This document shows, piece after piece, positions 17,304 to 29,426 of a stretch of 59,476 nucleotides of DNA. How positions within the stretch are numbered: position 1 is the first letter of the stretch; each line of letters opens with the position of its first letter. The notes beneath the pieces were generated by a model. That model did no database searches and was not told the DNA's origin. It saw only the letters and a list, made by a program, of their open reading frames with translations. A program made the position numbers and the translations under genes. Source of the stretch: an uncultured bacterium (GTDB lineage Bacteria; Bacillota; Clostridia; Oscillospirales; Oscillospiraceae); NCBI GenBank assembly GCA_947383145.1, contig CANDCH010000011.1, positions 1-59,476 on the forward strand, written 5' to 3'.

Positions 17304-17537
17304 ATGGAATATCCATTTTATTTGGAACAGAAATTTTTTGACGCGGGATACCTGGAGAACCGTATCCTGACCGCCCAAGAGGCGGAGGCTCTCAACTACG
17401 AGGACGGCTACAAGGCCCACGGAGAGGGCTACACCCTGTATGTGGACGGCTACAGCAGCAGGGAGGCCATCCAAAGCGATCTGGACGAGTGGGAGGCCAC
17501 AAGACGGGCCTATGAGGAAGATCCGGAGGAGCAGTAA
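17304..17537 (+). CDS. Conserved small hypothetical protein preceding recombinases
   Basis: A 77-residue strongly acidic protein beginning MEYPFYLEQKFFDAGYLENR, with YEDGYKAHGEGYTLYVDGY in the middle and an acidic C-terminus. It has no cysteines or membrane segment. GGAGG nine bases upstream supports the start. It sits 22 bases before the first serine recombinase gene in the same direction. A recombination-directionality role would be attractive for a small acidic protein in this place, but there is no sequence evidence for it. Confidence 0.65.
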   Translation: MEYPFYLEQKFFDAGYLENRILTAQEAEALNYEDGYKAHGEGYTLYVDGYSSREAIQSDLDEWEATRRAYEEDPEEQ

Positions 17538-17559
17538 GCCAGAAAGGGGTGTGCGCCAG

Positions 17560-19116
17560 ATGAGCAAAAATGTCACCATCATCCCGCCCAGCGAGAAAAA
17601 AACCGATACCCTGCGGGTGGCGGCATACTGCCGGGTCAGCTCCGACTCTTCCGACCAGCTTCACTCTTACGCCTCGCAGATCCGTAAATATACCGAGGAA
17701 ATCGGGCAGCATGAGGGCTGGGAGCTGGTGGACATCTATGCTGACGAGGGCCTGACAGGCACCCGAATGGAGCAGCGGGAGGACTTCAACCGCATGATGG
17801 CCGACTGCCGGAAGGGCAGGATCGACAAGGTGCTGGTCAAATCCGTCTCCCGCTTCGCCCGGAACACCAAGGACTGTCTCGCCGCCCTGCGAGAACTGAT
17901 GAGCCTGGGCGTGACGGTCTACTTTGAAAAAGAGAACATCAACACAGAGACGCTCACCACCGAACTGATGGTGAGCGTCTCCGGCGCCCTGGCCCAACAG
18001 GAGTCCATCTCCACCTCGCAGAACCAGCGGATCAGCTACAGGCGGAGGATGGAACGGGGGGAATTCATCACCTGCTGCGCTCCCCTGGGATACCGCATCG
18101 TGAACGGCAAAAATTTGGAAATTGTTGAAGATGAGGCCAAAACTGTTCGTTGGATTTTTCAACAGTACCTTATTGGGCAAAGCGCTGACCGGATCGCAGA
18201 AAAGCTAAACCATGAGCAAATCTCTGCCCCTGGCGGCGGAATATGGCACCATCAGACGGTTACAAAGATCATTTCAAACGAAAAATACATTGGGGATTCC
18301 CTCTGCCAGAAAACCTATACCACAAATACATTTCCCTATGAGCGGAAGCTCAATAAGGGGGACGCCGATCAATATTATACCGAACATTCCCACCCAGCCA
18401 TCATAGAACGTGAAGCCTTTGTGAAAGTCCAAACGCTAATGAAAAAAAGAGGTGAGCGCGTTTCCAGTCCGCTGAAGGAATATCCGCTGTCGAGAAAAAT
18501 CATCTGCGGGAAATGCGGCTCGATTTTTAGCCGAAAGCAGACAAAAAACGGGCTTACCCTGTGGGTATGCAGGAAGCACGACCGCAGGGCAGAAAGCTGC
18601 CCCATGGGCAGGATTCCTGAGTCCGAAATTTACGCCGCTTTCATGCAGATGTACAACAAACTCAAGCACCATGAGGGCATCATCCTCAAGCCAGCCCTCG
18701 CCCAGCTTCGGGACCTGAACGATGCCCTCCAACGGGGCAACCCCGCCATGCTGGAGGTGAACAGGGCCATCGCCACCGCCTCTGAGCAGAGCTATACGGT
18801 CAGCACACTCCGAAGCAAGGGTCTGCTGGACGAGGCCGCCTGTTCCGCCAAGCTGCTGGACATCGAAGCCAAGCTGGCGGAGCTTCGGCGGGAGCGCCGC
18901 CGCCTGCTGAAGAACGAGGACATCGAGGAGGTCATGGACACCCTGCGTCAGACGGCGGACCTGATTCATAATGGACCGAAACGGCTGGACAGCTTCGATG
19001 AAGCCCTGTTCGCCGATCTGGTGGAGAAGATCACAGCGGAGTCCCAGACCCGCATCCGATTCCGCCTCTACGGCGGCATCGAACTGGCGGAACAGCTCCG
19101 GGAGGTGGGCAGATGA
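17560..19116 (+). CDS. Large serine recombinase 1
   Basis: A 518-residue site-specific recombinase of the large serine family. The resolvase/invertase catalytic domain has nucleophile Ser27 in AAYCRVSSDS, the DEGLTGTRMEQREDFNRM segment and VKSVSRFARNTKDCL. It is followed by a recombinase domain (PLGYRIVNG to NEKYIGDS), a zinc-ribbon (CGKCGS and CRKHDRRAESC) and a coiled coil. The start at 17560 has AAAGGGG 11 bases upstream. From about 18110 to 18620 the codons are visibly more AT-rich than on either side, suggesting gene conversion or mosaic origin. Its last 4 bases overlap the next recombinase-like gene. It likely integrates or excises this element together with the two genes that follow. 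Confidence 0.93.
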   Translation: MSKNVTIIPPSEKKTDTLRVAAYCRVSSDSSDQLHSYASQIRKYTEEIGQHEGWELVDIYADEGLTGTRMEQREDFNRMMADCRKGRIDKVLVKSVSRFARNTKDCLAALRELMSLGVTVYFEKENINTETLTTELMVSVSGALAQQESISTSQNQRISYRRRMERGEFITCCAPLGYRIVNGKNLEIVEDEAKTVRWIFQQYLIGQSADRIAEKLNHEQISAPGGGIWHHQTVTKIISNEKYIGDSLCQKTYTTNTFPYERKLNKGDADQYYTEHSHPAIIEREAFVKVQTLMKKRGERVSSPLKEYPLSRKIICGKCGSIFSRKQTKNGLTLWVCRKHDRRAESCPMGRIPESEIYAAFMQMYNKLKHHEGIILKPALAQLRDLNDALQRGNPAMLEVNRAIATASEQSYTVSTLRSKGLLDEAACSAKLLDIEAKLAELRRERRRLLKNEDIEEVMDTLRQTADLIHNGPKRLDSFDEALFADLVEKITAESQTRIRFRLYGGIELAEQLREVGR

Positions 19117-19889
19117 CCAACCGAAAGAATTTGTACGGCTACCACATCGAAAACGGTGAGCTGACCATCGTCTCCCAGGAGGCGGAAATTGTTCAGCGGA
19201 TCGCAACGCTGTATATCGCCGGCGGTTCCTACCAGAGCATCGCGGAAACACTCAACGGGGACGGTATCCCGTTCAGCACGGAAGCGCCGCTCTGGAACAA
19301 GCACAAGGTGAAGCGTCTGCTGGAGAATTCCCGCTACACCGGCCAGAAGGGATATCCCGCTATCATTGACGCCGAGACGTTCCAAGCTGTCCAGAGAATG
19401 ATCCAGGAGAAAACGGCTGGCTACGCGCCACCCAAGGATCGCCCGGCCCTCCGCCTGAAGCCATACCTGCGCTGTGCCTGCTGCAAGGGAGATCTGCACC
19501 GGCTGGCCGGGAAGAACCGCAGGGCGGATACCTTATACCTCAAGTGTATCCGCTGCGGTGCGCTGGTCACGGTTTCCGACACGGAGTTGATGAATGAGGT
19601 GTCCCGTCAGATGTTGGAACATGACCGCCCCACCGAGCAGCCCTACGCCCCGTCCGGCGAGGTGATCCGCCTGACCAACGCCGTCAACCGGGGGCTGGAG
19701 CATCCCGACAAGCCGGAGGACATCGTGTCCGTGATCTTGCGGGGGGCCTCCGCACGGTATGACTGCTGCCCCGCCCCAACTGAATCAGAACCTTTCAACC
19801 GCCCAGCCGAAGCAGATTTCAAACGCTTCGGTCAGGCGGTTTCCCATATCGCCATCGCAGATGGGACCATAACCGTCCACTTCAAATAG
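19113..19889 (+). CDS. Recombinase-like protein without catalytic domain
   Basis: A 258-residue protein made of the C-terminal parts of a large serine recombinase. It has a recombinase domain (LYGYHIENGELTIVSQEAEI, SYQSIAETLNGDGIPFS, KVKRLLENSRYTGQKG), then a zinc-ribbon-like region with four cysteines (CACCKGD and CIRCGAL) and a helical tail. The resolvase domain with its Ser nucleophile is absent. The clean ATGA overlap with recombinase 1, the 9-base gap to recombinase 3 and the intact frame argue against simple decay. It is probably a DNA-binding accessory subunit for the flanking recombinases; that is inference from arrangement. Confidence 0.85.
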   Translation: MTNRKNLYGYHIENGELTIVSQEAEIVQRIATLYIAGGSYQSIAETLNGDGIPFSTEAPLWNKHKVKRLLENSRYTGQKGYPAIIDAETFQAVQRMIQEKTAGYAPPKDRPALRLKPYLRCACCKGDLHRLAGKNRRADTLYLKCIRCGALVTVSDTELMNEVSRQMLEHDRPTEQPYAPSGEVIRLTNAVNRGLEHPDKPEDIVSVILRGASARYDCCPAPTESEPFNRPAEADFKRFGQAVSHIAIADGTITVHFK

Positions 19890-19898
19890 GAGGTCACC

Positions 19899-21539
19899 AT
19901 GGAACAGGCAGTATTGGAACGCAGGGTGCGCGTCATCCCCGCCACCAAGCCCGCCCCCGCCAGCGGCCCCAGGCACAGCGGCAGACAGCGTGTCGCCGCC
20001 TACTGCCGGGTGTCCACCGACAGCGAGGAACAGCTCAACAGCTACGCCGCCCAGCAGAATTATTACACACAGAAAATCCAGGAAAATCCCGATTGGGAGA
20101 TGGCCGGGATCTTCGCTGACGAGGGTCTGAGCGGCACCAGCATGAAAAAGCGGGCGGAGTTCAACCGCATGATCGCCGCCTGCAAGCGTGGCCGCATCGA
20201 CATGATCCTCACCAAGTCCGCATCCCGGTTCGCCCGGAACACGGTGGACTGCCTCAAGGTGATCCGCACCCTGAAAGCCAGGGGCATCGCTGTGATCTTT
20301 GAAAAGGAAAATATCAACACCCTGACCGAGTCCAGCGAGTTCCTGATCACCCTGTTCAGCAGCTTTTCCCAGGCGGAGAGCGAGTCCATGGGGGCGAACA
20401 TCGTCATGGGGATGCGGCAGAGCATGAAGGAAGGCAAGATCCCCTTCCAGTACAGCAGGACGCTGGGCTACCGCAGGGGGCCGGACGGCAGGCCGGAGAT
20501 CGACCCGGAGGAGTCTGAGACGGTGCGGCTGATCTACGCCCGCTATCTGGAGGGCCGCAGCCTGGGCGACATCCAGCGGGAGCTGACCGAGAGGGATATC
20601 CCCACGGCGAAGGGCATCCAGGGCTGGTCACGGCAGGTGATCCAGAATATCCTGACCAGCGAGAAGTACATCGGGGACGGCCTGCGGCAAAAAACCTACA
20701 CCACCGGCCCTATTGGCGATAAAAAGACGGTGCGGAATAACGGTGAGCTGCCCATGTACTACACCAGGGATAACCACCCCGCCATCATCCCCAGGGATAT
20801 CTTCTACCGGGTGAAGGAGGAGATGGCCCGCAGGGCCAGCAAGCGGAAGGTGATGCAGAAAACCGCCAAGACCGAGCAGGGCAAATACTCCGCCAAGTAC
20901 GCTCTGTCTGAGCTGCTGGTGTGCGGGGAGTGCGGTACGCCCTACAAGCGGTGTACCTGGGCCAGAAACGGGAAAAAGCGGATCGTCTGGCGGTGCGTCT
21001 CCCGCCTGGAGTTTGGCACAAAATACTGCCACAACTCTCCCACGCTGGATGAGGACAGGCTCCACCGGGCCATCGTGGCCGCGCTGAACGAGTACGGTAC
21101 CATCCGGGACGAGGTCAAGGCTGATGTCCTGGAACTGGCGGAGCTGGCTATGAGCGGCGGTGAGGACGGCGGCATGAGCCTTCTGGAGCTACGGCAGAGG
21201 CTGGATGCCCTGACCGCGGAACAGGCGGTTGTGCTGGACAAGATCCTGGCGGATATGAAAAACTCGGAACTGAACGCACAGCTTGAAACGGTGACGGCGG
21301 AGAAGCAGAGTGTCCTGGATCAAATCGCGGCCTGCCAGCAGAACGAGGAGCAGCAGGCCGCCCAAGCCTCCAGACGGCAGGAGATGGAGAACTGGCTGGA
21401 CCGGCAGCCCATGTGCTTCACGGAGTACGATGACACCCTCACCCGCAGATTCGTAGAGCGGGTCACCGTGGTGGATGCCGAGACCATCCAGGTCAAGATC
21501 AGGGACACGGAGGTTGTGATCGAGCAGAAAATCTGTTAA
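19899..21539 (+). CDS. Large serine recombinase 3
   Basis: A 546-residue large serine recombinase. Catalytic Ser39 lies in AAYCRVSTDSEEQLNSYA, with DEGLSGTSMKKRAEFNRM and TKSASRFARNTVDCL completing the resolvase domain. It continues with a recombinase domain (TLGYRRGPDGRP, SEKYIGDGLRQKTYTTG), a zinc-ribbon (CGECGTPYKRC ... CVSRLEFGTKYC) and a long coiled coil. An AGGAGG site lies five bases before ATG 19899. It is the third gene of a tightly packed recombinase cluster and is followed 23 bases later by a broken metallophosphoesterase gene. Confidence 0.94.
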   Translation: MEQAVLERRVRVIPATKPAPASGPRHSGRQRVAAYCRVSTDSEEQLNSYAAQQNYYTQKIQENPDWEMAGIFADEGLSGTSMKKRAEFNRMIAACKRGRIDMILTKSASRFARNTVDCLKVIRTLKARGIAVIFEKENINTLTESSEFLITLFSSFSQAESESMGANIVMGMRQSMKEGKIPFQYSRTLGYRRGPDGRPEIDPEESETVRLIYARYLEGRSLGDIQRELTERDIPTAKGIQGWSRQVIQNILTSEKYIGDGLRQKTYTTGPIGDKKTVRNNGELPMYYTRDNHPAIIPRDIFYRVKEEMARRASKRKVMQKTAKTEQGKYSAKYALSELLVCGECGTPYKRCTWARNGKKRIVWRCVSRLEFGTKYCHNSPTLDEDRLHRAIVAALNEYGTIRDEVKADVLELAELAMSGGEDGGMSLLELRQRLDALTAEQAVVLDKILADMKNSELNAQLETVTAEKQSVLDQIAACQQNEEQQAAQASRRQEMENWLDRQPMCFTEYDDTLTRRFVERVTVVDAETIQVKIRDTEVVIEQKIC

Positions 21540-21562: not shown

Positions 21563-22525
21563 ATGGCGCTTTTTATAACAGGTGACACACACGGAGATTT
21601 TACCCGCTTCAAGAAAAGTATTTTCTATGAACAGGCGGATCTGACCAAGGATGACTGCGTCATGATCGCCGGCGACTTCGGCGGCATCTGGGACGGCGGT
21701 GCGGAGGAGCGCCACTGACTGGACTGGCTGGAGGCAAAGCCCTTTACCACCTTGTTCGTATCCGGCAATCATGAGAACTTCGATATGTTGGCCAAGTTCC
21801 CGGTTGAGGACTGGCACGGTGGCAGGGTGCAGCGTATCCGCCCCTCGGTGATCCACCTGATGCGGGGTCAGATCTACGACATCCAGGGCAAGAGCTTCTT
21901 CGCCATGGGCGGGGCCAGCAGCCACGACATCCAGGACGGCATCCTGGAGCCGGACGATCCGCTGTTCAAGAAGAAATGCCGGAGGCTGGACGCCCGCGGG
22001 GCGATGTACCGGGTGAACCACCGCTCCTGGTGGAAGGAGGAACTGCCCAGCGAGGAGGAGTACCAGACCGCCAGGGCCAACTTGGAGAAAGTAGGCTGGG
22101 CGGTGGACTATATCATCAGCCACTGCTGCCCCACCTCAGTGCAGGACGAACTGAGCGGCGGGTTTTACAAAGCTGATGCCCTGACTGATTTTTTGGAGGA
22201 AGTAGCCCAGCGATGCCGGTTCAAATACCAGTTTTTTGGACATTACCACACCAACCAAGTCATACGGGGAAAATATGTGCTGATGCATGAACAGATTATC
22301 AAATTAAACCTGTCGGATTCTTTTCCACTAAAGCTGCCGCCTGTGGAAGAATATTTGAACGACCCTACTCAATCTGAACAAATTGCTGTCAGTTGTTCGG
22401 ATGGGGTAGGGTCGCTCTTTACCTGTAGCCCTTGTTTTTCAAGGACTACAGGCTTTTTCGACTTCGGGTGTCATGTGTCACTAAGCAATAGCAAACAGTT
22501 CAAAATCAGAGAGCAAAACGTGTGA
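21563..22525 (+). pseudogene. Metallophosphoesterase, interrupted by TGA
   Basis: A calcineurin-like phosphoesterase gene of mobile elements. The N-terminal metal motifs are visible (FITGDTHGDF, MIAGDFGG), but codon 52 is TGA (21716-21718) in the context GAEERH-stop-LDWLEAKPF, where the family has Trp; a single TGG to TGA change explains it. The frame then continues with FVSGNHENFD, SHCCPTSVQDEL and FGHYHTNQ, so all other active-site motifs remain. Past about 22300 the frame runs into AT-rich sequence with a changed C-terminus. An internal ATG (21752) could yield a product lacking half the metal site. Treated as a pseudogene. Confidence 0.85.
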
Positions 22526-22727: not shown

Positions 22728-22756
22728 TTGCACACAATGTTGATGTATGATATAAT
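22728..22756 (+). promoter_or_regulatory. Promoter of the SIR2-Argonaute operon
   Basis: TTGCAC (22728-22733) and a perfect TATAAT (22751-22756) are 17 bases apart, 32 bases before the start codon; GGGAGG (22777-22782) is the ribosome site. The defence pair therefore has its own vegetative promoter. Confidence 0.75.
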
Positions 22757-22788
22757 CATCATGGAAATTTGTAGACGGGAGGTGTCAC

Positions 22789-25700
22789 ATGAATACAATA
22801 TCGCAAGAACAGCTAATCAGGAATTTTAAGGTTATGCATGATGGAGAAATTGACTTTTTCCTCGGTGCTGGGGCCTCAATCCAATCAGGAATTCCCACAG
22901 GGGGAAATCTCGTGTGGCACTTTAAACGTGAACTGTATTGCATTGAAAACAAACTCTCTTTAGAACTCTATAAGGATTTAAAACTTACAGCCACACGAGA
23001 ACTATTACAAAATTATTTTGACAATCAAGGTACCCATCCCCCTTTATATGCTCCAGAAGAATACTCTCACTATTTTGAACAATGTTATAGCACAATAATT
23101 TCAAGAAAACGCTTTATAGAAGACCTAGTTAAAGGAAAGAACCCATCACTGGGATACTTATGTTTAGCTGATCTTATTACTCATTCCAAGGTCAAAAATG
23201 TATGGACCACAAACTTCGATGCCTTAGTTGAAGCCTCAATTAATACTCTTAATCCTTCCTTACCTTATGTAGTCTGCAGTTCAGCCAATCAAGATAGTTT
23301 TTCTTTACTAAATCCCGAATATCCATCCATTTGCAAATTGCATGGTGATTATAGATACGACAAATTACAGAATACTGAATCAGAACTGCAGGAGCTAGAG
23401 GCCCATCTTTATTCATACGCATTGTCTCAGCTTTCTGGAAAAGGGCTAATAGTTATTGGCTATTCTGGTAGTGATGAGTCAATTATGTCCTTTTTTGAAA
23501 GTCACTTATCCAATCCCGACTTTCTATCAAAAGGGTTATTCTGGGCTGTTCATAAAGGAAGTTCCGCATCTAATCGCATAAAATCTCTAATAGAATCAGC
23601 TGCGGCATTTGGGAAAGATGCCGCAATTGTTGAAATAGAAGGTTTCGATGATTTTTTATATGAAGTATATCGACATACTAGTAGCCCTAACCCTATTGTT
23701 GATAATAAATGGAGAGATAACCCGCTTATTCAAAAGGTTTTAACATTTAACGGTTCACCAATAGATTCTTTTATTAAATCAAATGCTTATATAGCAAGTA
23801 ATCATCCCCTTTGCCATGTATTCGAGACTGATATTTCCAGTTGGGCAGAACTGAGGAAATGTATCGGTAGTAGTAATATTATTGCTGCTTTGTACAGCCG
23901 ACATATCTACTGCTTTGCTAACACCGACCATATCAATTCTGTATTCGGTAATCATATTAAATCTGCCATCAAGTTAGAGCCGGTTGAAGAAAAGATTTTA
24001 CGCAAAAACGACTCGATTTATACTGGCCTATTATACCAGCTTTTGAAGCAATATATGATTTCAAAGGGGATGACCGAATACCGCAAAAACAAATACTATG
24101 ACCCACATACCGCTTTGAATAAATCTGGCTATGTTTTTTATAAGGCTATAGAAATAGCAATCTCATATATTAATGGTAATTTTTACTTGAATCTAATTCC
24201 AACAGTTCATGTAACAAGTAATAGCGGGAAAAACCTAGAAAAATTATTGTACCAATATCATGTAAATAAAGCCATATCCAGCATTTGGAACAAACAATAT
24301 AATGAAAACTTGAAATATTGGGAAAAGCTACTCAGAACATCTGGGCGAATGTTTTTTGAGTGTGAAGGTTTTCAAATTGAGTTTCAAACCCCAGCAATAA
24401 GTTGTGGGGGTACTAATCGCGACAAAAAATGGCCGTACTTGCCAGCATGGCTTTATCAAGAACCGGTAATGTGCTTTTCTGAGGTAGATCATAGTAAATC
24501 AACTGTTAGTCAGCTAAGAGGCCTTATCAATTATGGACCAATAGATTGCTCTTATGCTCCAGCTAATGCAATAAGAAATCCTATTCAACTTGCGGTATTA
24601 GCCCCCAAGGAAAAGATGGTTACTATCCTCTGTCATTTAAACAGTTTGAATAGTCGCAAGGCAACATCTGGAAAAGACCAATTTATATTAAACTATGAAG
24701 GTTTTGAACCAGTATTTAAGCGCGTGTTGTTAGTCCCAACAACAGATAATGCAGAACTTTGTGTTGGCTATAACGAAAACGCCGTGCTTTCACGTTCCGC
24801 ACATGACTTTGTTGCATTTTTAAAGCGAGGTATTGACTATTTTGCTTCAAAAATTACAGATTTTCATGTTTTGATCATTTATATCCCTACTAATTTTTCG
24901 CGTTTTCGTGAAGCAAAAGAAATTTCGGCAGACTTTAATCTTCATGACGAAATAAAACTATATGCGACTGATCGCGGAGTTAAATGCCAATTTATTGAAG
25001 AACGATCAATTAATACATATGATCCCTGCAAGGTTTTATGGGGACTATCAACCAGTATATACGCTAAATCGTCGGGTGTATTATGGCATCCGCAGGCAAT
25101 TCACAGCGGCACAGCGTATATTGGAATTAGTTATGCTCAGTCCGACGAAAAAGGTATTTGTATAGGATGCAGTCAACTATTTGATTCTACCGGAACCGGA
25201 ATCAGGATGATTCTTCGCAAAATTGACAATCCACACTATTGGGGAAAGAACAACCCATATATGGGGCGCGATGAAGCACGTAGCATGATGAGTCAATTGC
25301 GCGAACAGTATTATGGTAGCAACCCAACAGCGTTGTTAAATCGTATAGTTGTTCACAAGACTACTCCTTTTATGCGCGAAGAAATCATAGGTATTACGCA
25401 AGCACTTGAGGGCATTAATGATATTGAATTAGTGCAAATTCAAGCCTATTGCCCTTGGCGAGCCATAAAATTTGGGGCAGAAGCCTCACTAACAGCAGCC
25501 CCGTTTGCTGTTAAACGAGGAATGACAATGCAACTAAGTTCAGATAGTTTTCTATTATGGACTCATGGCTGTAGCGTTCATCCAGACATTTCAGGAAAAT
25601 TGAACTACTATAAAGGTGGTCGTGGTATCCCGACTCCACTTTTTGTAAAGCGCTATTATGGACAAGCATCTGGTGATATATTAGCACAGGAAATACTAAT

Positions 25701-25845
25701 GCTCACTAAAATGAATTGGAACAGTGGAGATAGTTTATACAAAATTTTGCCTGTTACTTTAGATTTTGCAAAAGTTCTTGCCCGTATGTCGAAACAAAAT
25801 GCTGCTATTTATAATAAGGCATACGATTTTAGATACTTTATGTGA
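22789..25845 (+). CDS. Single-chain SIR2-APAZ-like-MID-PIWI short Argonaute
   Basis: A 1018-residue predicted defence effector. Residues 1-300 form a SIR2 domain with the NAD-binding GAGAS (26-30), TTNFD (Asn142, Asp144), KLHGDY (His185) and GYSGSDE (224-230), so NADase residues look intact. Residues of about 320-640 have no obvious motif and sit where APAZ domains occur. The C-terminal third resembles MID-PIWI of prokaryotic Argonautes: KCQFIEERSI, PTALLNRIVVHKTTPFMREE, NDIELVQIQAYCPWR, TPLFVKRYYGQASGDILAQE and TLDFAKVLARMSKQNAA. An RNase-H-like DEDX tetrad is not evident, as in other short Argonautes. The expected action is guide-directed recognition of invading nucleic acid, then NAD depletion. 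It is AT-rich and operonic with the DisA_N-like gene 18 bases downstream. Confidence 0.85.
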   Translation: MNTISQEQLIRNFKVMHDGEIDFFLGAGASIQSGIPTGGNLVWHFKRELYCIENKLSLELYKDLKLTATRELLQNYFDNQGTHPPLYAPEEYSHYFEQCYSTIISRKRFIEDLVKGKNPSLGYLCLADLITHSKVKNVWTTNFDALVEASINTLNPSLPYVVCSSANQDSFSLLNPEYPSICKLHGDYRYDKLQNTESELQELEAHLYSYALSQLSGKGLIVIGYSGSDESIMSFFESHLSNPDFLSKGLFWAVHKGSSASNRIKSLIESAAAFGKDAAIVEIEGFDDFLYEVYRHTSSPNPIVDNKWRDNPLIQKVLTFNGSPIDSFIKSNAYIASNHPLCHVFETDISSWAELRKCIGSSNIIAALYSRHIYCFANTDHINSVFGNHIKSAIKLEPVEEKILRKNDSIYTGLLYQLLKQYMISKGMTEYRKNKYYDPHTALNKSGYVFYKAIEIAISYINGNFYLNLIPTVHVTSNSGKNLEKLLYQYHVNKAISSIWNKQYNENLKYWEKLLRTSGRMFFECEGFQIEFQTPAISCGGTNRDKKWPYLPAWLYQEPVMCFSEVDHSKSTVSQLRGLINYGPIDCSYAPANAIRNPIQLAVLAPKEKMVTILCHLNSLNSRKATSGKDQFILNYEGFEPVFKRVLLVPTTDNAELCVGYNENAVLSRSAHDFVAFLKRGIDYFASKITDFHVLIIYIPTNFSRFREAKEISADFNLHDEIKLYATDRGVKCQFIEERSINTYDPCKVLWGLSTSIYAKSSGVLWHPQAIHSGTAYIGISYAQSDEKGICIGCSQLFDSTGTGIRMILRKIDNPHYWGKNNPYMGRDEARSMMSQLREQYYGSNPTALLNRIVVHKTTPFMREEIIGITQALEGINDIELVQIQAYCPWRAIKFGAEASLTAAPFAVKRGMTMQLSSDSFLLWTHGCSVHPDISGKLNYYKGGRGIPTPLFVKRYYGQASGDILAQEILMLTKMNWNSGDSLYKILPVTLDFAKVLARMSKQNAAIYNKAYDFRYFM

Positions 25846-25863
25846 AAATCTTATAATCTGCAT

Positions 25864-27213
25864 ATGATAGCCAATACTTCGTCGCTAAAGGGGAATATAT
25901 TATCTATGTTTAATGATAGCCTAGAAAAATTTTTGTCTGGTCTAAAGTATTTGCTTGCTGAAACAGGGATAATTCTGGACATTGATGGCTCTTTTTTCTA
26001 CCAATATGACGATGCAGATGATATTGATTATAAGTTTACTTCTGACACTGTTCCTGTATTTCAGAATGGATTTGATAAGGCATATCAGCTGGGGATGTCC
26101 TCCGGACTTTACACTAGAACTTATAATGGAACACGTGAATTTTTAATGCATTATGACAGCAACGGATTATCTTATATGTTCGTTATGGTACATATTCAGT
26201 TAACCGAATATAGGAAATATTATGGTGATTCTTTTGAAATGCCAGATCAAAACTGGCTTCTTGTCCAAGACATTAGTTTTAAAACATTCATTGATAACCT
26301 CATAGCTGCCTATTTGCGCGCATATCGAACCCCGCAAAAAATCTCTGCCATTGACATTATTAATTCAGCCGGTAATAAATATATTTTTGATTTAGTCTGC
26401 ACAAAAAGCCAAATTCAGAATGTTAATATTCATAATGATATTAACATCCTATCTGTTCTTCAATATGAAAAACAAAATAATATTGGCACATTAATCATGG
26501 CACCTTCTGATATTTGTAAATATCTAGATATTAGGTTATTTCAATCAGTTTCTATTCAAGAATATAAGAGGGCAAGAAAGTTATTTGAAATCGCGACCCA
26601 AAACACCTTTCTTGTAGGAAACAGCCGCACTATCTATGGCGCAATTACTCGACAAGGTCTTGTCAGTTCAGGATATGAAACGCTAGTCCAAATAAAAATA
26701 TATGGTCCCCTAAGCTGGGAGGTATTTTCCTACTGCCCTACAACAAATACGAGTGTTTCATTAGTGCAGTATAAAAACTCTCGATATCAAATAAAGTCAT
26801 CCCACAACACAATAGATGTTTTCAAAACTGCTGTACTGTCGGTCTGTTCAAACGCCGATATGGAGGCACTAATAAATATCGTGCAATCTGCTTGTGGACA
26901 AATGCACGACACAACAATAGTATTCTCTATAGATGCTGAAGAGGAAGCAATGCGGCTAGGCAATTCTTGTTTCCAAATTCATCCAACATCAATTGAGCAT
27001 ATTACCCATCAAATTACTGCAATTGATGGTGCTGTGCTCTGTGATATGTCTGGAACCTGTTATGCAATTGGCATTATTCTAGATGGTCTCTCTTCACACA
27101 CCGAAAACATTTCTTATGGCGCACGGCATAATTCGGCTAAGCGATATAAAGCTACTCACCCGAACTGCGTAATTGTTATTGTATCAGAAGATGGTGGGAT
27201 TACTCTTGAATAG
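25864..27213 (+). CDS. Protein with C-terminal diadenylate-cyclase-like (DisA_N) domain
   Basis: A 449-residue protein of unknown overall family. The last 62 residues carry what I read as a DAC (DisA_N) core: DGAVLCD at 388-394 (the DGA motif), then GARHNSA at 419-425 (matching the GxRHRxA motif with Asn in place of the second Arg) and CVIVIVSEDGGITL at the end, which fits the VIVVSEETGxI strand. DAC domains condense two ATP into c-di-AMP. The first 380 residues look like one or two alpha/beta sensor domains without membrane segments or cysteines. The 18-base gap, shared strand and shared AT-rich composition tie it to the SIR2-Argonaute gene. Its start has no strong ribosome site (the upstream gene ends nearby), so coupling is likely. 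Domain similarity is seen by motif; the activity is inferred. Confidence 0.65.
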   Translation: MIANTSSLKGNILSMFNDSLEKFLSGLKYLLAETGIILDIDGSFFYQYDDADDIDYKFTSDTVPVFQNGFDKAYQLGMSSGLYTRTYNGTREFLMHYDSNGLSYMFVMVHIQLTEYRKYYGDSFEMPDQNWLLVQDISFKTFIDNLIAAYLRAYRTPQKISAIDIINSAGNKYIFDLVCTKSQIQNVNIHNDINILSVLQYEKQNNIGTLIMAPSDICKYLDIRLFQSVSIQEYKRARKLFEIATQNTFLVGNSRTIYGAITRQGLVSSGYETLVQIKIYGPLSWEVFSYCPTTNTSVSLVQYKNSRYQIKSSHNTIDVFKTAVLSVCSNADMEALINIVQSACGQMHDTTIVFSIDAEEEAMRLGNSCFQIHPTSIEHITHQITAIDGAVLCDMSGTCYAIGIILDGLSSHTENISYGARHNSAKRYKATHPNCVIVIVSEDGGITLE

Positions 27214-27634: not shown

Positions 27635-29341
27635 TCAAGCGGTTTTATCCGGGGAGTAGCTGACGGCTACTCCCTTTCTCGTCCCCATGGTGATTTGCGT
27701 AGCCGGGATTTTCCGGCGGTCAGGGACAGCGAAAGCGCCGATACAGTTGTAATAGATGGTGATGTGCTGGGTGGTCACGCCGTCTTTCTTTTCGGCGTGG
27801 TATACATTGATGTGGTCGATCAGCTCCGCCACCATGCGCCGGGTGATCTGCGTGGCGTTGGTGTAGCGCCGAACAGTTGCAAGGAAAGTATCAACATCCA
27901 TTCGCTGGCCCTCGCTCTTTTTCAGCTCCAGCCGGAGAGCCTTGATTTTCTTGGCGTTCTCCCCCTGCTCTTGTTCATACCGCTGGGACATTTTAGCAAA
28001 ACGGGCGTCGCTTATCTTCTGGTTCACGTTGTCCTCATAAATTTTCTCGAACAGCACATCCAATTCCTTGTCCCGCGCCAAAAGCACGTCAGGCTCCCGC
28101 TGCTTCCTCGCCCGGTCATTATCCGCCACCTTCGCAGATTGGCCCATGATGGCTTTAAGAAAATCGTCCTCGTACTCATTGGCAAAGTGGGCCAGCCGGT
28201 TCACTTCATAAAGCACCACCTGTTCCAGAAATTCCACCCGGATATAATGGGTCCTGGAGCATTTCCGCAGGCCGGAGTTGTGGTTCTGGCAGCTAAAAAA
28301 CTTGATGTCGTGGTTGCCCTGGTTGAAGTGAAAATTGAGGTTTCCCCCACACTCCGGGCATTTCAGAACGCCGGAAAATACGCTGGGTTCCTGGGTGACG
28401 GTGGGCCGTTTGCGGCGGGTGCCCTTCTTCAAATTCTGCACCTTCTCCCAGGTGGGCCGGTCTATGATAGCTTCGTGGACGTTCAGAAACACCGCCCTGT
28501 TTTCTTCCGGGGTTTCGATGCGCTTCTTCACTTTATAGGACTTAGAAAAGGTTTTGAAGTTGATGATATCGCCGCAATACTCCTGGGTGGTAAGTATCTT
28601 TTTGATGGTGGTGTGGCCCCATTTGGTGGGCTCTACGGTGCTTTTAAGCCCGCCCCGGTTCGTCCCCTTGCTCCGCCAGTAGTAGGTGGGATTGCAAATC
28701 CCATCCCGCTCCAGCGCGGCGGCGGTTTCTGCCAGCCCATAGCCGTCGAGGGCCATTTGATAAATGCGGCGTACCACAGCGGCGGCCTCACGGTCGATTA
28801 TCCAAAAGCGGGGGTCGTCCGGGTTTTTGATATAGCCGTAGGGCGGCGGGGACAGCGGCACCCCGGAATTTCCTTTCAGTTTGTTCACAATTTTTCTCTT
28901 TTTGGAGATATCCCGAGCGTAATACTCGTTCATGATATTTTTGAAGGGCGTGAACTCATTCTCACCCTCGTCGCTGTCCACCCCATCGGAAACGGCTACC
29001 AGCCGCACATCATGGGCCGGGAAAAATTCTTCCGTCAGGCGGCCCACCTCAATGTAGTTCCGGCCCAACCTGGAAAGGTCTTTCACGAACACCGCCGCTA
29101 TGTACCCGCGTTCGATGGCCTGGAGCATTTTTTGCAAGCCGGGACGCTTCATGGTGGTGCCTGTAATCCCATCCTCCACGAAAAACAAGGTGTCCGAATA
29201 GCCCCGCTCCCCCGCCGCCTTCTGGAGAATTTTCTTTTGATTGCTGATGCTGTTGGATTCGGTGTCCAGATTATCGTCACGGCTGAGGCGGCAGTACAGC
29301 GCCGCCGTCCCAAGCTCGTGGTTCTTGCTTGACTGCTTCAC
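27635..29341 (-). CDS. TnpX/TndX-like large serine recombinase
   Basis: A 568-residue transposon-type serine recombinase. The catalytic domain has Ser20 in ALYCRLSRDD, the SNSISNQKKILQ segment, EDGITGTTMKRPGLQKML and VKDLSRLGRNYIEVG. It continues with the recombinase domain (PPPYGYIKNPDD ... LTTQEYCGDIINFKT), a zinc-ribbon (CPECGGNLNFHF, CQNHNSGLRKC) and coiled coil (KKIKALRLELKKSEGQRMD). The start is taken as GTG 29341 because GGAAAGGAG lies six bases upstream and the family begins KQSSKN; an upstream ATG at 29383 is an alternative. It is distinct from the three recombinases at 17.5-21.5 kb, so at least two mobile elements meet in this region. A TnpW-like gene lies directly upstream. Confidence 0.93.
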   Translation of the reverse strand: MKQSSKNHELGTAALYCRLSRDDNLDTESNSISNQKKILQKAAGERGYSDTLFFVEDGITGTTMKRPGLQKMLQAIERGYIAAVFVKDLSRLGRNYIEVGRLTEEFFPAHDVRLVAVSDGVDSDEGENEFTPFKNIMNEYYARDISKKRKIVNKLKGNSGVPLSPPPYGYIKNPDDPRFWIIDREAAAVVRRIYQMALDGYGLAETAAALERDGICNPTYYWRSKGTNRGGLKSTVEPTKWGHTTIKKILTTQEYCGDIINFKTFSKSYKVKKRIETPEENRAVFLNVHEAIIDRPTWEKVQNLKKGTRRKRPTVTQEPSVFSGVLKCPECGGNLNFHFNQGNHDIKFFSCQNHNSGLRKCSRTHYIRVEFLEQVVLYEVNRLAHFANEYEDDFLKAIMGQSAKVADNDRARKQREPDVLLARDKELDVLFEKIYEDNVNQKISDARFAKMSQRYEQEQGENAKKIKALRLELKKSEGQRMDVDTFLATVRRYTNATQITRRMVAELIDHINVYHAEKKDGVTTQHITIYYNCIGAFAVPDRRKIPATQITMGTRKGVAVSYSPDKTA

Positions 29342-29426
29342 GTTTTTCTCCTTTCCTGCCGTCAAACAAGAGGTTTTATCCATCTCTATTCTACGATTTC
29401 CCCTGTTTTTTGTCAAATTTTCTGCG

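Follow-up and report, generated by a model that had tools for sequence, protein, structure and literature searches.

A single-chain SIR2-Argonaute gene next to a DACNH-DAC gene in an AT-rich segment flanked by serine recombinase genes

DS-2 is a phage defence system that was reported by DefensePredictor and consists of a phospholipase, a cGAS-like enzyme and a DAC protein (PMC13092281). According to that report, defence was in each case lost on mutation of two predicted catalytic residues of the DAC protein. Of 30 DAC homologues, 15 were found beside CBASS, a link for which Galperin 2023 is cited there. Given DS-2, the participation of DAC proteins in phage defence is no longer new. For the long-B pAgos, variable downstream effectors have been described (PMC10954474, PMC10620215), and for GsSir2 it has been reported that mutation of either N142 or H186 abolishes the NADase activity (PMC10781750). 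The locus described here brings relatives of these proteins together, i.e., a fused SIR2-Argonaute and a DAC protein. A sequence-only reading of the locus had called this pairing undescribed, and no such pair was found in the literature searched, which excluded preprints and most subscription papers; one review there mentions Argonaute, c-di-AMP and NADase. A search for DACNH and its sister names under the same limits (no preprints, few subscription papers) also yielded no relevant paper.

The locus and its two proteins

The window, i.e., the whole stretch of DNA that was analysed, comprises positions 1-59,476 of a contig from an uncultured Oscillospiraceae bacterium. The Argonaute gene (ORF1, 22789-25845, 1018 aa) and the DACNH-DAC gene (ORF2, 25864-27213, 449 aa) are both located on the plus strand and are separated by a gap of only 18 nt (25846-25863), which agrees with the sequence-only reading, as does their common AT-rich composition. 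The GC content is 37.2% for ORF1 and 36.2% for ORF2, and the respective GC3 values are 0.301 and 0.303, in contrast to 54-61% GC in the four flanking recombinase-type genes. The two genes form an AT-rich segment between three such genes upstream (17440-21539) and a fourth one downstream on the opposite strand. The upstream array, on the plus strand, encodes a large serine recombinase (17440-19116), a recombinase-domain protein without a resolvase-domain match (19113-19889) and another large serine recombinase (19899-21539). The downstream gene (27635-29416, minus strand) also encodes a large serine recombinase. Two strong adjacent hairpins are present ahead of the AT-rich segment at 22360-22452 (z -6.3 for 22360-22470), which are possibly a terminator pair. 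The cargo segment is not bounded by any convincing repeat, the sole direct pair spanning both genes being 16 nt long and 88% identical. Neither a tRNA gene nor an Rfam family was detected when the window was scanned for them. The host genome (2.48 Mb, 58 contigs, 85% complete) contains one Argonaute match.

ORF1 is a single-chain SIR2-Argonaute. The motifs GAGAS, TTNFD, KLHGDY and GYSGSDE, which had led to this assignment, are present, and the PADLOC model of fused SIR2-pAgos (PDLC02420, Aga_SIR2-PNTD1-PNTD2) is matched over residues 1-1018 with 1303 bits. Pfam SIR2_2 (PF13289) is matched with an E-value of 4.7e-11. Both halves also match chains of the PDB entry 8in8, the SIR2 half 8in8_B ("Sir2 superfamily protein", E 1.6e-42) and residues 558-1018, i.e., the C-terminal half, 8in8_C ("Piwi domain protein", E 1.2e-56); these are two chains that we take to be the SPARSA complex. 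The MID-PIWI half and a SIR2 domain with an Asn-His dyad (N142 and H185) are therefore both present in one chain. An alignment of 22 Argonautes, namely ORF1 and 21 of the 22 relatives that begin within the first 10 residues (L006, which has a broken frame, was left out), shows N142, D144 and H185 without exception. The two residues of the dyad correspond to N142 and H186 of GsSir2 (PMC10781750). By analogy with SPARSA, ORF1 would be expected to deplete NAD when triggered by guide RNA and target DNA, and the PIWI catalytic tetrad is expected to be missing, as in the short-pAgo kin.

The assignment of a DAC domain to ORF2 was likewise borne out. The motifs DGAVLCD, GARHNSA and VIVIVSEDGG were found again, and the Pfam cut-offs are passed for DACNH (residues 188-287, E 7e-12) as well as for DAC (residues 364-447, E 3.3e-10, 40 bits vs. 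a cut-off of 27). The NCBIfam model DS2_3 (NF053872) is matched over residues 160-448 with 172.6 bits (E 1.1e-50), below its equivalog cut-off of 630. A DACNG match was absent with Pfam, neither PADLOC (best E 0.043) nor PHROGs (best E 0.17) contained a strong model, and a profile of 18 proteins of the ORF2 family matched no solved structure at E 0.1. The domain order is that of a sensor region followed by a C-terminal diadenylate-cyclase-like domain, which would have a nucleotide signal as its product and for which a trigger and a target are presumed.

D388, G389, G419 and N423 are invariant among the 18 aligned members of this family, and R421 is nearly invariant. The RHR motif of DisA does not occur in ORF2; the sequence is GARHN (within GARHNSA, residues 419-425), and Asn replaces the second Arg in 18 of 18 members. 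The host genome carries one other DAC gene, which we label CdaA-like, and in this gene RHR is kept. The exchange would be compatible with an inactive DAC-fold sensor that does not synthesize a nucleotide, a question that is independent of the pairing with the Argonaute. We consider such an inactive protein rather doubtful, because the Asp-Gly pair starting at D388 is kept in 18 of 18 members and DGA in 15 of them (two have DGT, one DGM), because mutants of the DS-2 DAC in predicted catalytic residues are reported to lose defence (PMC13092281), and because this Asn is also found in the relative L055, which scores above the threshold of DS2_3. Decay of ORF2 alone was also tried as an explanation of the exchange and was rejected, since the Asn is family-wide. 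ORF2 is thus an accessory second DAC of a distinct subfamily, which may make c-di-AMP.

Relatives of the two proteins and their neighbourhoods

For the Argonaute, 37 loci from 64 candidate stretches and one viral contig from five viral stretches were obtained. Some of these 38 relatives are truncated, and two (L035 and L037, 23-26% identical) are distant kin; 22 of the 38 begin within the first 10 residues, and the remainder are fragments, remnants or the two distant kin. At least 600 nt of downstream sequence were present for 36 of the 38. When the available flanks were searched with ORF2 (tblastn), an ORF2 relative was found beside the Argonaute in none of the 38 loci and only the own locus matched, and a comparison of ORF2 with the neighbouring ORFs of the Argonaute relatives (phmmer) also recovered only the own copy. 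Of the 36 genomes in which the 37 Argonaute loci lie, two (G606 and G619) contained ORF2 matches, which were weak and were located on contigs other than that of the Argonaute. Among 199 kin genomes, the Argonaute was matched in eight including the own genome, in five of these over the SIR2 part only, and ORF2 was matched in the window's own genome only.

The converse survey comprised 26 neighbourhoods of ORF2 relatives (seven plasmid loci, five viral contigs and 14 genome stretches, three genomes having contributed two each). Some of these relatives (L060, L075, L080, L081, L095, L096) have DACNH only and do not pass the Pfam DAC model. The Argonaute was found near none of the 26 (22 + 4), and the Argonaute query had no match in eight records or genomes that were searched whole, a negative that carries no weight without a positive control, although the same query matches the own and the kin genomes. 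A CD-NTase is present in at least four of the 26 neighbourhoods (L052, L053, L055, L080), a lower bound because the count is based on annotation and two CD-NTase queries. L053, L055 and L080 pass the DS2_3 cut-off, the three DS-2 genes of L055 all score above their cut-offs, and L052 encodes a CD-NTase together with a 4TM effector beside the ORF2 relative. DACNH is rare: it was found in 2 of 398 and in 2 of 375 genomes (one of the latter under the cut-off, the own genome being counted in both), and in 4 of 395 genomes in the phylum of G623. As there are only few close ORF2 relatives, a pairing that is rare may have escaped the survey.

The closest ORF2 relative found is encoded on a viral contig (L077, IMGVR_UViG_3300035327_000392). 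It is 35% identical over 264 residues, has the same GARHNSA, and is a lone cargo directly behind three large serine recombinases, with GGGGGAGGG before its ATG. An Argonaute match is absent from this 7-kb contig. Its recombinases are 23-27% identical to those encoded by the first and third genes of the window array (the second had no match) and 28-32% identical to the recombinase encoded at 27635-29416. A search with the L077 protein was positive in 4 of 371 genomes, the own genome included. When viral contigs were scanned twice more, no ORF2 relatives past L077-L081 were obtained, and a scan with ORF2 only yielded none.

Two further arrangements were observed among the DAC-like genes. In three genomes the gene adjoins a gene for a large protein of 883-891 aa without a Pfam match (L075:5774-9617, L076:2275-10853, L096:3826-8151); the large proteins are related over part of their length (23-27% identity), the L096 copy had no PDB match, and L076 additionally encodes an unknown protein of 947 aa and one with a Macro domain. 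This gene pair is a candidate for an uncharacterised DAC operon. DACNH proteins with C-terminal TPR repeats are encoded at L094:6046-8757 and L081:6618-9215, and the former also has a DAC match.

The sequence-only reading had proposed that the two genes form an operon and function jointly, and had suggested a survey of pAgo homologues for the same partner. In one two-gene system, the dinucleotide made by the DAC would gate or amplify the SIR2-Argonaute, or the DAC would be a second effector. The adjacency of the genes, their common strand and their common composition are consistent with this proposal, a related DAC is reported to be required for defence in the CBASS-like DS-2 (PMC13092281), and the CD-NTase neighbours indicate that such DAC proteins can be partners. 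However, the survey was negative in both directions (0 of 38 and 0 of 26), so that the suggested partnership was not found in the 38-locus sample, and searches of the Argonaute with Pfam, PADLOC and NCBIfam did not reveal a domain that binds cyclic nucleotides. A joint system seems therefore unlikely.

In 16 of 36 Argonaute loci the nearest downstream gene is on the same strand at a distance of at most 100 nt, and the same holds for the nearest upstream gene in 6 of 20; neighbouring ORFs were called greedily by length (at least 90 aa), and some are possibly spurious. Family matches were sought for 15 downstream and four upstream neighbours of our choosing, plus one second gene. The downstream genes vary and encode proteins with caspase (L038, L039), UvrD (L019, L029), AAA_15 (L017), NUDIX (L004), methylase (L008) or SNF2 (L025) domains, while genes of L027 and L031 matched nothing. 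The caspase-domain (Peptidase_C14) genes are found 25-38 nt 3' of the Argonaute or its remnant (L038:8269-9750, L039:11120-13204), and the UvrD-like helicase genes 6-23 nt 3' of it (L019:11028-13148, L029:9835-11937); in the latter two loci, which are from two different taxa, a second shared gene follows. Downstream of a complete Argonaute with 76% identity (L002), genes for HamA and for a DEAD helicase are located instead.

Several of these neighbours resemble effector or defence genes, and the Argonaute may thus have a slot for changing partners (caspase, UvrD, AAA, NUDIX, DAC) that would act as second effectors, comparable to the long-B Argonautes (PMC10954474, PMC10620215). The differing families of the close same-strand ORFs and the recurrence of caspase and UvrD in two loci each point in this direction. 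On the other hand, close same-strand genes are also present upstream, as would be seen wherever defence genes are densely packed in an island, 20 of the 36 loci are devoid of a close same-strand downstream ORF, the ORF calls include possibly spurious ones, and a SIR2 effector is already built into the Argonaute. A swappable slot is thus very unlikely in our opinion. The more general notion that the DAC and the fused SIR2-Argonaute are one system, in which NAD depletion under the direction of a guide is coupled to signalling by a dinucleotide, is improbable too, its boldest form being that the DAC is one occupant of an exchangeable second-effector slot.

The junction and the stacking of two modules

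The Argonaute gene had been described as having its own promoter. A promoter-like site is indeed present upstream (22729-22756, plus strand; TGCACA, 16 nt, TATAAT with a preceding TG), which scores 10 of 12, but the region contains 19 sites with this score compared to 17.6 (sd 4.5) in shuffles. Such sites are not commoner than expected by chance, and a promoter is therefore not established. A second site with 10 of 12 precedes ORF2 (TTTAGA, 18 nt, TATAAT at 25852-25857, in the gap). By eye, the ATG at 25864 is not preceded by a Shine-Dalgarno-like sequence, while an ATG at 25906 has AAGGGG 12 nt upstream. With this alternative start the protein would have 435 aa and the true gap would maybe be 60 nt, and together with the TATAAT in the gap it indicates that ORF2 may have its own promoter. 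Separate expression of the two genes is therefore possible; they may, however, now be co-transcribed. The TGA of the Argonaute gene shares its reading frame with the DAC ORF, and no other stop lies between them (25843-25908), probably by chance. A fusion by read-through was rejected, because all Argonaute rows compared end with FM and a stop, and the stop is taken as real.

In the locus with the closest Argonaute DNA (L014) the sequence is 90% identical to window positions 24608-25855, i.e., to a point 10 nt past the Argonaute stop, so that the first 10 nt of the gap are shared, and then diverges without a DAC gene. The junction of ORF1 and ORF2 looks young. L014 is a 5'-truncated Argonaute remnant (residues 607-1018) adjoining a recombinase-like gene, and the missing DAC may therefore be a loss, which makes this comparison suggestive, not decisive. 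Truncated 3' Argonaute parts inside contigs were also seen in L030, L033, L034, L036 and L038, and that of L030 likewise adjoins a recombinase-like gene.

The divergence of L014 past the stop, the other downstream genes of L002 and the lone cargo of L077 indicate that both genes behave as movable cassettes. We favour, with a probability of roughly 70%, the explanation that two separate anti-invader modules have been stacked within the AT-rich cargo that lies between the serine recombinase genes. The first module would be a fused version of SPARSA, in which recognition of invader nucleic acid by the guide-loaded Argonaute half would switch on the SIR2 half, which would destroy NAD and thereby abort the infection; the anatomy is seen in ORF1, while the mechanism is taken from SPARSA. 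The second module would be a DS2_3 relative, in which the sensor region would control the DAC-like domain and thus the formation of a nucleotide signal. In the relatives examined nothing indicates a mutual dependence of ORF1 and ORF2. The same strand, the 18-nt gap and the matched GC and GC3 values speak against stacking, since a true operon would show the same features. The two proteins are members of two known defence families in an unusual neighbourhood, and the comparative evidence does not support a joint mechanism.

If the pair worked together, guide-directed immunity would be linked to cyclic-dinucleotide (CBASS-like) immunity in one operon. Even without joint action, the locus yields a relative of the newly validated DS-2 DAC that is not part of a recognised CBASS operon, and it is a clear case of defence genes stacking beside recombinase genes. 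Its interest is modest unless a dependence between ORF1 and ORF2 is shown at the bench.

Comparison with known systems

ORF2 resembles canonical DisA and CdaA in its DAC domain over cut-off and in D388-G389-A390, but RHR is missing. With DS2_3, the third gene product of DS-2, it shares the order of DACNH and DAC and the Asn in place of Arg. It differs in that it is below the cut-off, has no DACNG, ends soon after DAC without the extension of L053, L055 and L057, and is encoded next to an Argonaute, whereas the adjoining genes in DS-2 encode a phospholipase and a CD-NTase. L077 is alike in size, in GARHNSA and in its place directly behind a serine recombinase array, but it is not accompanied by an Argonaute. 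The likeness to Panoptes, a guard system with decoy cyclic nucleotides, is one of idea only, namely a standing nucleotide signal that guards against phage nucleotide sponges; as described, Panoptes relies on OptS, a minimal CRISPR polymerase, and not on a DAC (PMC12657218). By analogy, guarding of this kind might explain the DAC genes beside CBASS. ORF1, finally, shares with SPARSA and the single-chain SIR2-APAZ-pAgos the full-length model match, the SIR2 and Piwi halves and the Asn-His dyad, and it differs from SPARSA in being one chain instead of two and in having a DAC gene as its next neighbour.
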